Assembly (NCBI GenBank): GCA_024275435.1
Contig: JAJRZC010000183.1
Span: 1-32,955 of the forward strand
Length of the DNA stretch: 32,955 nt
Source of the DNA: Alphaproteobacteria bacterium
Lineage (GTDB): Bacteria > Pseudomonadota > Alphaproteobacteria > Rhizobiales > Hyphomicrobiaceae
Reading direction: 5' to 3'
Shown: positions 8,905 through 20,892 of the stretch, one piece after another
Layout: every line of letters starts with the position of its first letter
Position numbering within the stretch: the stretch's first letter is position 1
The notes under the pieces: generated by a model
The model's input: only the letters and a program-made list of their open reading frames with translations
The model's database searches: none
What the model was told of the DNA's origin: nothing
Program-made: the position numbers and the translations under genes

Positions 8905-9624
8905 ATGAAGAATTTAAGATCGGCACTGGCCACCATGACAATGCTGTTTGGAATAACGGCTGTGCTAGGCCCATCCATGGCCGCCGAGGAAATAACGCCA
9001 CCAAAACCAAAGGCTGTCAGTGAGGAATCAAGCTGGAGCGCCCAGGTCGCCCCAGATGGCGAATCCACCATCACCCTCGGAGAACAACAAAACATAACCG
9101 TCGGAAAGATCAGCGAATACTTCTCAAAACTCACCACCTTGAACGGTCGGTTTATTCAAACAGGCGCCGACAAAAAGGTCATGAAGGGCAAATTCAAAAT
9201 GATGCGCCCCGGTAAGTTTCGCTTTGATTACGCCCGCCCATCACTTCAGGTCATCATCTCAGACGGCCGCTATCTGGCTATCCAAGACCACGATCTGGGC
9301 AATGAAAACCGTATATCCCTAGATCAGACACCATTTCGAATTCTTCTTCGTAAAGACGTTGACTTGGCACGTGATGCCGACATTCTGGAAGTCCAGGAAA
9401 CAGACAATAAGATCTATCTCGTCATCCGCGATAAAAGCCCGGATTCACCTGGCGTGATCAAATTAACATTTACCAAAGAACCTCAGATCGAATTGTCCCA
9501 ATGGATCACCACGGACGCACAAGGTCTCGACACCCATGTGGAAGTAAAAAACCTCGTTCACGGTGAAAAATTCAATGATAAGGAATTCGTGATCACAGCC
9601 CCAGAGCAGCGCTTCATTCGATAG
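8905..9624 (+). CDS. lolA: Outer-membrane lipoprotein carrier protein LolA
   Basis: This 239-residue periplasmic chaperone takes lipoproteins from the LolCDE complex at the inner membrane to the outer membrane. Residues 1-27 form a signal peptide ending in SMAA. The mature part carries LolA hallmarks: an early helix ISEYFSKLTTLNGRFIQ, then GKFKMMRPGKFRFDYARPSLQVIISDGRYLAIQD, and further beta strands ending with EFVITAP. A ribosome-binding AAAGGCGG precedes the ATG. The position after ftsK is common in Hyphomicrobiales. A hairpin closes the gene downstream. Family assignment is secure; no residue looks missing. Confidence 0.93.
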   Translation: MKNLRSALATMTMLFGITAVLGPSMAAEEITPPKPKAVSEESSWSAQVAPDGESTITLGEQQNITVGKISEYFSKLTTLNGRFIQTGADKKVMKGKFKMMRPGKFRFDYARPSLQVIISDGRYLAIQDHDLGNENRISLDQTPFRILLRKDVDLARDADILEVQETDNKIYLVIRDKSPDSPGVIKLTFTKEPQIELSQWITTDAQGLDTHVEVKNLVHGEKFNDKEFVITAPEQRFIR

Positions 9625-9637
9625 CTGCCACAGCCAC

Positions 9638-9666
9638 AGTGCTCAAATAGATACAGTTTGAGCACT
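9638..9666 (+). terminator. Hairpin after lolA, probable terminator
   Basis: A perfect 10-bp inverted repeat, AGTGCTCAAA at 9638-9647 and TTTGAGCACT at 9657-9666, has a 9-base loop and starts 14 bases after the lolA stop. It lacks a strong T run, so it may act as a weak terminator or an mRNA 3'-end stabiliser. Confidence 0.6.
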
Positions 9667-9758
9667 TCTCGTGGCGTATTCGCATCAGCACAACCATCAA
9701 CAGGGTGGCAAAGCGATAGATTCGGTAACATTTTCGTGATGTGGCCTATTCCTACTTG

Positions 9759-9786
9759 TTGAATTTGCTCAACGAGCGCTTAATTC
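9759..9786 (+). promoter_or_regulatory. Possible sigma-70 promoter of the candidate small RNA
   Basis: TTGAAT at 9759-9764 and TAATTC at 9781-9786 are 16 bases apart. They would place a start near 9793-9797, just before the hairpin series. The -10 match is only fair, so this is tentative. Confidence 0.3.
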
Positions 9787-9794
9787 TAAACCTA

Positions 9795-9938
9795 GACAGG
9801 CGCGTCACCCTGTATTCGGTAGTGCCCCCCCGTCGAACCGAAGACGCGACCTGGGGTACCGGTTTCCCTCCCGGTATCAAGCGCGCAAGCGCCGAAGCGC
9901 CCGGTCTCTCCCCCAGAGATCGGGCGTCTTTATTTTGT
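9795..9938 (+). ncRNA. Candidate small RNA with three C-rich hairpin loops
   Basis: This stretch folds by eye into three consecutive hairpins. The first pairs TTCGGT (9815-9820) with ACCGAA (9837-9842), and its loop holds seven consecutive C. The second pairs 9855-9862 with 9871-9878 (8 bp, one G-U) and has loop TTTCCCTC, giving a CCCTCCC run at the loop edge. The third is a 12-bp stem, 9898-9909 with 9915-9926, with loop CCCCC followed by a T-rich tail. C-rich or CCUCC loops are known in bacterial sRNAs that bind Shine-Dalgarno sequences, including alphaproteobacterial suhB/MmgR-type RNAs. Membership of that family is my suggestion, not established. No convincing protein is encoded here. The gene lies between convergent lolA and the cyclic-nucleotide-domain gene, where I would expect xthA in related genomes. 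Confidence 0.55.
9898..9937 (+). terminator. Rho-independent terminator of the candidate small RNA
   Basis: CGCCCGGTCTCT at 9898-9909 pairs with AGAGATCGGGCG at 9915-9926 over 12 bp with one G-U pair. The loop is CCCCC, and TCTTTATTTTG follows. The T-rich tail is on the + strand, so it ends a rightward transcript. Confidence 0.75.
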
Positions 9939-10011
9939 TTCGCTCATTTCAAATGAGAAGGAATGCAACGGGACGATTTCTTTTTTTATCCCACCGCTCT
10001 GGTTTATTTCG

Positions 10012-10539
10012 TCAGTGAAGTTGTGCCTGGCGCACGGACTCACCCGTGATAGACGACGACGAAGCCGTTGAAGCCTCAGAAGCCGACGCGAGAGCCTGAT
10101 CGACACTGCGCAATTCACAGGCCAAATCAGAAAGTCGCCCAGCAATCTTATGAAGAAAATGATCCACCAGTGCAGGATCGTGCTCCATCAGCTCTTGCAA
10201 GCCCTCGCGTGTAATCCGAAGGGCACGCACCATGCCACGGGCAATAACCGTTGAACCGTATTCCATCTCCACCAGCATAGCCATCTCCCCGAGAAGAGAG
10301 CCTTCGTCAATAACCTCAAGGCCACCATCAAGATCCACGCCAGATATACGAACAGCATCACCAGAAACAACTAGAATAGCCGCGTCACCTTCACTATCTG
10401 CTGCAATGATTGTATCGCCTTCACGATACACAATGCGTTCTGCACTCCGCGCGATCATTGAAATCTGCTCAAGGCTAAGTCCCCGAAAGAGAGGAACGCC
10501 GCACATCGGACGCATCAAAGTTTCATTTACCTGCATCAT
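10012..10539 (-). CDS. Cyclic nucleotide-binding-domain protein without DNA-binding domain
   Basis: The 175-residue protein is a single CRP/cNMP-type beta-roll (about residues 15-130) followed by a helical, Ser-rich tail; there is no helix-turn-helix. LFRGLSLEQISMIARSAERIVYREGDTI is the typical entry helix and first strand. The phosphate-binding cassette reads GEMAMLVEMEYGSTV: the glutamate (E72 in E. coli CRP) is kept, but the arginine (R82) is replaced by glycine. It therefore may not bind cAMP, or may sense another ligand or act as a scaffold. Genes of this type near an OmpR regulator and L,D-transpeptidase recur in Hyphomicrobiales, but the function is unknown to me. The 432-base gap from the regulator upstream suggests its own promoter. 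Confidence 0.85.
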   Translation of the reverse strand: MMQVNETLMRPMCGVPLFRGLSLEQISMIARSAERIVYREGDTIIAADSEGDAAILVVSGDAVRISGVDLDGGLEVIDEGSLLGEMAMLVEMEYGSTVIARGMVRALRITREGLQELMEHDPALVDHFLHKIAGRLSDLACELRSVDQALASASEASTASSSSITGESVRQAQLH

Positions 10540-20582: not shown

Positions 20583-20706
20583 GACGTCAAACTACCTCGT
20601 CTCTAACCCGAGTCGAAAAAACCAAAACAATCTTTAATGGACCCTCACCCATCAGCCCGCCGCATCTGCACAACAAGGCGAAGCGGTAAAAGACTGAGGT
20701 CAAACC

Positions 20707-20742
20707 AAAAAAGCACCCACTGACGAAACTCGCCGGTGGATG
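20707..20742 (-). terminator. Terminator-like hairpin upstream of ffh, pointing leftward
   Basis: On the - strand CATCCAC pairs with GTGGGTG (20742-20736 with 20720-20714; one G-U), then after one mismatch GGCGA pairs with TCGTC around a GTT loop, and C plus six T follow (20713-20707). It is a good intrinsic-terminator shape about 125 bases upstream of ffh, but no recognised - strand gene precedes it. It could end an unseen transcript or act as an ffh leader element. Confidence 0.55.
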
Positions 20743-20892
20743 TGGACCTCACGACCTCCCGAAGATACCAGCTCATATGAAACCAGTTCATCATGTGTCG
20801 CAAAGCGGCTCGAACTACGGGCCATGTATGAATTGCACCGCACAATGTGGGATATCAGCGCCAAAGTCAATGATTTGGTCCTCAAATCATGA
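20740..20892 (+). CDS. Possible 50-residue small ORF
   Basis: An ATG at 20740 opens a 50-codon frame. Its second half (AKRLELRAMYELHRTMWDIS) looks like an amphipathic, charged helix. It ends in an ATGA overlap with a further 15-codon frame. There is no ribosome binding site and I know no family. It may be a remnant of a lost gene rather than a working one. Confidence 0.2.
   Translation: MWTSRPPEDTSSYETSSSCVAKRLELRAMYELHRTMWDISAKVNDLVLKS

Follow-up and report, generated by a model that had tools for sequence, protein, structure and literature searches.

A predicted RusT-kind small RNA with an additional C-run loop behind lolA in a Hyphomicrobiaceae bacterium

The region behind lolA on contig JAJRZC010000183.1 (assembly GCA_024275435.1), from an alphaproteobacterium of the Rhizobiales family Hyphomicrobiaceae, raises the question of which kind of RNA is encoded there and to which known regulator it is related. 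The window analyzed is the whole stretch of 32,955 nucleotides (nt), and the element under study occupies about 9793 to 9933 of its plus strand, between lolA and a cyclic-nucleotide-binding gene (10012-10539, minus strand). A sequence-only reading had placed a candidate small RNA (sRNA) at 9795-9938, limits that are refined here by a few nucleotides. The predicted sRNA is very probably a fuller form of the kind represented by RusT of Caulobacter crescentus, and it has no Rfam family at curated score. The interpretation favored here, which is considered likely, is that of a separate sRNA gene representing the Hyphomicrobiaceae in an ancient alphaproteobacterial family that includes RusT; its product would act in trans as a loop-pairing, Hfq-assisted repressor.

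A conserved and covarying RNA with four stem-loops

Folding of the RNA from 9793 to 9933 gives -66.8 kcal/mol (z = -5.37), a stability matched by none of 200 dinucleotide shuffles, while the opposite strand reaches a z of only -1.64. The fold comprises four stem-loops (SL1 to SL4; Table 1). The C7 run of SL1 lies at 9825-9831, within an inner hairpin (UCGGU...ACCGA) that is nested in a longer outer stem. SL2 has UUUCCCUC as its loop, and the next CC already belongs to the stem. The terminator hairpin at 9897-9927 bears a C5 run and is followed by CTTTATTTTG, the T-rich tail that had been noticed behind the last stem. The sequence-only reading had described three consecutive stems, each presenting a C run; the runs themselves (C7, the CCCTCCC-type stretch of SL2, and C5) are all present, but the stem-loops number four, SL3 having been missed.

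Conservation of the segment is detectable by blastn in 24 of 60 genomes, its own included (21 from the window's family and 3 from other families), and no second copy was found by blastn in its own genome, the assembly of which is 94.5% complete. Applied to 23 aligned sequences, RNAalifold yields 38 pairs, and the compensatory changes in the stems on which the sequence-only reading had made its proposal depend are found at 24 of them, where both sides have changed. Across these sequences 95.3% of cells are paired, a value reached in none of 500 shuffles, and sliding the partners by 1-3 columns leaves merely 36-42% of cells paired. Pairs changed on both sides number 36 of 38 among 51 order-wide sequences and 37 of 38 in a class-wide alignment, both counts coming from alignments fitted to the model. 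Because of this conservation and covariation, chance is excluded as the origin of the structure. Alignment A1 omits L020 owing to its Ns, and alignment A3 omits L004, L006, L073 (large insertion), L075, L081, L084, and L087, though all of these matched the first covariance model described below; the 58 sources of alignment A4 were hand-picked for spread, and the 40 order matches taken as loci were also selected by hand.

Two loops are almost invariant, namely the C6-7 loop of SL1 and UUCCCUCCC of SL2, and the stems covary. The SL1 run CCCCCCGUC carries 1.4-2.0 bits per column and the SL2 stretch UCCCUC 1.5-2.0 bits, two variable 5′ positions excepted, whereas the columns of the outer SL1 stem mostly hold less than 0.6 bits, yet are paired; the SL2 stem near the loop is well conserved too. 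Loop columns of such high information, beside an outer stem of low information that nevertheless pairs, indicate that selection acts to preserve the C-rich loops, as it does in sRNAs that work by base pairing. SL1 contains a C5 run in 49 of the 51 order-wide sequences, and SL2 contains CCCUCCCG in 37 of the same 51 and in 44 of 58 class-wide members. Conservation of the terminator loop is lower, with CCCC in 36 of 51 (8 of 8 own-family rows and 28 of 43 others), so that of the three C-rich loops proposed earlier those of SL1 and SL2 stand out as the most conserved part and the third does not.

A conserved protein frame, which the sequence-only reading had weighed against an sRNA, is not apparent. 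Across 9793-9933, four of the six frames stay open for all or nearly all of 46 codons, yet an ATG is absent from all six, and the homologs, 137-148 nt as trimmed, differ in length by single bases. A shared protein frame is therefore unlikely, and a protein-coding segment was rejected on these grounds. The earlier proposal of a small RNA is upheld by structure, covariation, and loop conservation alike.

The distribution of the element was followed with three covariance models, the E-values of which are rough, as the models were short-calibrated. R1 was built from the 23 aligned sequences, R2 is an extension to other orders, and R3 was trained on 58 class-wide members. At E<=0.001, R1 matches 117 of the 297 order genomes, though the weakest of these matches may be false. 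R2 matches 42 of 337 genomes of the class at E<=0.01, and 32 of 80 genomes of the order containing the Caulobacteraceae at E<=0.05. A pattern scan of named genomes returned at least 118 stretches; among 80 listed, 42 match R2 at 56 bits or more, and these are all titled alphaproteobacterial or unspecified Proteobacteria/Pseudomonadota (three are cut by the locus end). Also among these 80, 35 stretches from other groups have no R2 match (best 18.3 bits), nor do three other alphaproteobacterial ones (L205, L260, and L266). Named records with a match include Hyphomicrobium facile, Filomicrobium insigne, Rhodomicrobium udaipurense, Prosthecomicrobium pneumaticum, and Bauldia litoralis. Loci L073 and L219 (Rhodomicrobium metagenome-assembled genome contig) are enlarged by a long insertion that separates SL2 from the terminator, so that the match extends over 224 nt as against about 140.

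Table 1. Features of the predicted sRNA and its upstream surroundings (window coordinates)
Feature	Position	Strand	Basis
RusT-family sRNA, predicted, about 140 nt, four stem-loops	9793..9933	+	Fold, covariation, covariance-model matches
SL1: covarying outer stem enclosing inner hairpin UCGGU..ACCGA with loop GUGCCCCCCCGUC	9797..9853	+	Pairs in alignment; column information
SL2: GGUACCGG-UUUCCCUC-CCGGUAUC; likely counterpart of the RusT target-recognition loop	9855..9878	+	Alignment, column information, Caulobacter comparison
SL3: small hairpin GCGC-GCAA-GCGC between SL2 and terminator	9881..9892	+	Fold, alignments
SL4: intrinsic terminator with C5 loop and T-rich tail	9894..9933	+	Terminator scan, alignment
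lolA, upstream syntenic neighbor	8905..9624	+	PF03548, E 3.1e-28
Promoter-like region: TTGAAT (-35), TTAATT/TAATTC (-10), spacing 15-16	9759..9786	+	Conserved TTGA
Upstream element GGTAACATTTTCGTGATG, palindromic, candidate operator	9724..9741	+	Nearly fixed place in own-family homologs

Relation to the RusT sRNA of Caulobacter

RusT (CCNA_R0199) of C. crescentus is described as a 118-nt RNA of four stem-loops encoded between lolA and xth, which is bound by Hfq, held down by NtrX, and induced by iron starvation or zinc excess (PMC11005374). It is reported to repress mRNAs of membrane transporters through its SL2 loop (C53), with TonB-dependent receptors, ompW, and others as targets, and to have homologs in Caulobacteraceae (PMC11005374).

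The element studied here very probably belongs to the RusT family of sRNAs, as a fuller form in which SL1 adds one more C-run loop that is deeply conserved. Like RusT, it occupies the slot behind lolA, which is directly upstream in the window, and has four stem-loops ending in a terminator; one series of covariance models matches both it and the RNAs in the RusT slot of Caulobacteraceae. The SL2 seed around C53 has a likely counterpart, assessed against congeners of C. crescentus: the loop core is CCCUCCCGG, as in Caulobacter-genus loci. SL3 is GC-rich, and an hfq gene is present in the genome; RusT is taken to bind Hfq through SL3. The element differs from RusT in length (about 140 versus 118 nt), in its upstream element, and in the absence of xthA from the slot in the window's family. 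Furthermore, SL1 is longer here than in the Caulobacteraceae members and bears the nearly invariant C6-7 loop.

The comparison with Caulobacter is anchored in locus L182, where a 119-nt R3 match lies in the lolA-xthA slot, folds into four stem-loops, and has CCGGATTCTATCCCCTCCCGG in SL2. When an RNA of 118 nt is placed at six neighboring ends in this locus, nt 53 is a C in four of them, and in every one of the six the C-rich part of SL2 takes in nt 45-57, a placement in keeping with the published RusT nt numbers, the comparison being one of numbering and not of letters. In genomes G691 and G715, the RNA of the lolA-xthA slot ends in a terminator and its SL2 reads CCGGA...TATCCCCTCCCGG. Both genomes were recognized as Caulobacter by their PopZ proteins, with identities of 87% and 85%; because as many as 234 of the 337 class genomes have PopZ, the assignment rests on the level of identity.

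Seventeen Caulobacteraceae genomes were matched against R2, and 14 of them were used further, of whose 14 loci 2 went into the training of R3 and 12 into its test. R3 finds a match in all 12 lolA slots kept for the test, with scores of 25.8-41.7 bits that are in each case the highest of the locus; the top score among 35 non-alphaproteobacterial control loci (249 kb) is 17.9 bits. CCCTCCCG is present in SL2 of 9 of the 14 slots, including all four of the Caulobacter genus, a comparison with congeners and not with RusT of C. crescentus itself. Caulobacteraceae loci L180, L182, L190, and L193 show an SL1 without the C run that is nearly invariant elsewhere, and their SL2 is kept.

Proposed function and competing explanations

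By analogy with RusT, the element would be expressed as a free RNA, depend on Hfq, and repress by pairing with targets of a similar kind. Transcription would probably start at its own promoter and end at the SL4 terminator, and the exposed C-rich loops (that of SL2 and, in this branch, that of SL1 too) would base-pair with G-rich stretches of target mRNAs. Hfq may assist this pairing, by which translation or stability of the target would be lowered. The most likely targets would be mRNAs that encode proteins of the envelope and of transport, regulated when metals or nutrients impose stress. Pairing of the loops with Shine-Dalgarno sequences, as the sequence-only reading proposed, may be one mode of such targeting.

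Several observations weigh against this interpretation. CCCUCCCG occurs in 9 of the 14 Caulobacteraceae slots, and the other 5 carry variants; members of this family lack the SL1 C run and were reached stepwise only. R2 matched 5 of 17 Caulobacteraceae genomes (E<=0.05, 27-44 bits) and none of the four Caulobacter-genus slots, and the training set of R3 included two Caulobacteraceae members, L188 and L192, of another genus. The link to RusT runs through congeners recognized by PopZ, not through the sequence of C. crescentus RusT. No R1 match was obtained in 180 of 297 genomes of the order, and R2 matched only 5 of 29 class loci taken around lolA; R3 matched 1 of 25 retested loci of this kind (L125, among the five R2 matches). 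The family is therefore patchy or diverged elsewhere. As to targets, a crude search for perfect 8-nt SL2 complements shortly before an ATG brought up no informative candidates: it gave 16 sites, against 4 for a reversed-pattern control, and only 2 of the 16 precede frames of more than 100 codons, neither of which is an evident outer-membrane protein by eye. Finally, the upstream element differs from the palindrome TTGTGACATTCTCACAA found upstream of the Caulobacter RNA, which lends no support to NtrX control in this bacterium.

The first alternative to be weighed is that lolA-xthA regions host unrelated C-rich sRNAs, in which case the RNA would be a non-homologous occupant of the RusT slot and the likeness convergent. 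This would account for the dissimilar SL1 halves of the Caulobacter and Rhizobiales forms, as well as for the weak direct R2 scores in Caulobacteraceae. However, intermediates from other orders (L126 and L142) combine GUUGCCCCCCC(C)GCUUGC in SL1 with AUCCCCUCCCGG in SL2, four of the five weak R2 matches in Caulobacteraceae lie directly behind lolA, and R3 recognizes all 12 Caulobacteraceae slots used for its test. The stepwise models point toward a placement of the Caulobacter RusT-slot RNA inside the family, and convergence is considered unlikely.

It is also improbable that the C-rich loops titrate a protein (Hfq, a CsrA-like protein, or a cold-shock protein) or ribosomal components with no pairing to mRNA. 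Such a role would fit loops that are repeated and better conserved than the SL1 stem, but it sits poorly with RusT, in which two reporters were repressed less strongly after a point change in the SL2 loop, and in which matching changes let the mutant RusT specifically repress two of three reporters tested (00210 and ompW, not 02895) (PMC11005374).

A cis-acting element, either a 3′ untranslated region or attenuator of lolA or the leader of a former xthA, is suggested by the proximity of lolA, the gap between the lolA match and the RNA having a median of 151 nt (range 84-1022). Against a cis role stand the conserved promoter-like box between the two, the retention of the RNA in its own family though xthA is absent from the slot, and the description of RusT as a free 118-nt RNA bound by Hfq (PMC11005374); a cis element is thus very improbable.

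Membership in the suhB/MmgR type, which the sequence-only reading had put forward from C-rich loops that could pair with GGAGG-type sites, can practically be dismissed, as the Rfam search shows no suhB match in the window at gathering score or on 9640-10020 at E up to 10, which refutes suhB as modelled in Rfam, and as the gene neighbors differ, MmgR itself being set aside without sequence comparison. The same search, proposed earlier for suhB and other families, places no Rfam family on the segment at gathering score. The best score there belongs to TfoR (RF02100), which reaches 22.1 bits against a gathering score of 70, chiefly through the C-rich terminator loop, and is judged a chance match.

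With a RusT-family sRNA as the preferred interpretation, it can be suggested tentatively, at somewhat less than even odds, that RusT is the Caulobacter branch, in reduced form, of an sRNA that is ancestral to the class and that in full carries two loops for independent recognition. The C6-7 loop of SL1 is nearly invariant over several orders and lost in Caulobacteraceae; if the suggestion is true, this loop would serve as a second seed or would bind RNA or protein, with a large, unstudied target set of its own. Few bacterial sRNAs can be traced over a whole class, and this one keeps its lolA-adjacent place, its structure, and two loops across many Rhizobiales families and members of other orders, which opens a way to study this regulator in Rhizobiales, Hyphomicrobium among them. 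Among open-licence papers searched for the loop sequence, for lolA or xthA together with an sRNA, and for RusT, only the Caulobacteraceae RusT work was found; a 2025 paper on a Caulobacter sponge names RusT only in its references (PMC12559287), and the main texts of a Rhizobiales survey (PMC3927594) and a Sinorhizobium meliloti survey (PMC2873474) name neither lolA nor xthA. Supplements or subscription journals may already report a transcript from this place without naming it.

Genomic place, upstream region, and other RNAs

According to Pfam, ftsK precedes lolA in the window and a response-regulator gene lies beyond the cyclic-nucleotide-binding gene. Members of the order commonly have the gene order ftsK-lolA-[RNA]-xthA. 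Of forty order-wide loci of 6 kb, 30 contain ftsK, 30 lolA, and 29 xthA, while 19 have the response regulator and 11 the cyclic-nucleotide gene, all lower bounds, as one query was used per protein. Among 91 aligned matches, lolA is upstream in 69, xthA is downstream on the same strand in 51, and at least one of the two is present in 80; with three loci counted twice in the 91, the distinct loci having lolA before and/or xthA after number 79 of 88. The expectation of the sequence-only reading that xthA should stand beside the element was apt for the order, but none of 18 own-family loci has xthA (flanks of about 1.5 kb). In 16 of the 18 a cyclic-nucleotide-binding gene takes the place of xthA, which explains the surprise of the sequence-only reading. 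In the window this gene faces the sRNA, and xthA has apparently been lost or moved. Directly behind lolA, at 9638-9666, stands an inverted repeat (AGTGCTCAAA...TTTGAGCACT) that is perhaps a lolA terminator separating lolA from the sRNA.

Within the promoter-like region, the TTGA of the -35 box keeps its position in 18 of the 19 upstream regions examined from the window's family and in 10 of 14 from elsewhere; a simple consensus promoter scan called no promoter at 9759-9786. One consensus of the sigma-EcfG promoter expected for a GsrN-type gene, GGAAC-N15-18-CGTT, has no match in the window, about one being expected by chance. The candidate operator farther upstream appears as a perfect palindrome (GATCACG-TTTT-CGTGATC) in L005, L006, and L011, and in the window as GGTAACATTTTCGTGATG. 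Among the 19 own-family upstream regions, 18 have their best palindrome match within four positions (index 32-35), and 17 of the 19 match it at 12 or more of 18 letters; shuffle maxima per row (n = 200) also reach 12-14. Because single-row scores are not beyond chance, the palindrome is argued from its shared place. Most of the 14 other upstream regions contain no outstanding match to it. In its own genome the element has one copy at up to 2 mismatches and therefore names no regulon.

Four other alphaproteobacterial sRNAs were compared and set apart by locus and by their features as described, not by sequence. GsrN of Caulobacter is similar in that an exposed loop with six C in tandem serves it in pairing with targets, but it is sigma-T-activated and its homologs are usually near general-stress genes (PMC5869019). 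EcpR1 (SmelC291) and GspR (SmelC775) of Sinorhizobium are conserved rhizobial trans-acting sRNAs with loop-based pairing, and GspR, reported only in Sinorhizobium, is of similar length (144 nt), but their loci differ (divK-pleD/rpmG and SMc03844/SMc03845, respectively) (PMC4414408, PMC5928217). PmaR of Agrobacterium also pairs with targets through a C-rich loop, but it is described as lying between two hypothetical genes and as mostly activating (PMC6234868). Elsewhere in the window, the Rfam ffh sRNA family has a match on the minus strand at 20706-20757, with 38.9 bits against a cut-off of 35.
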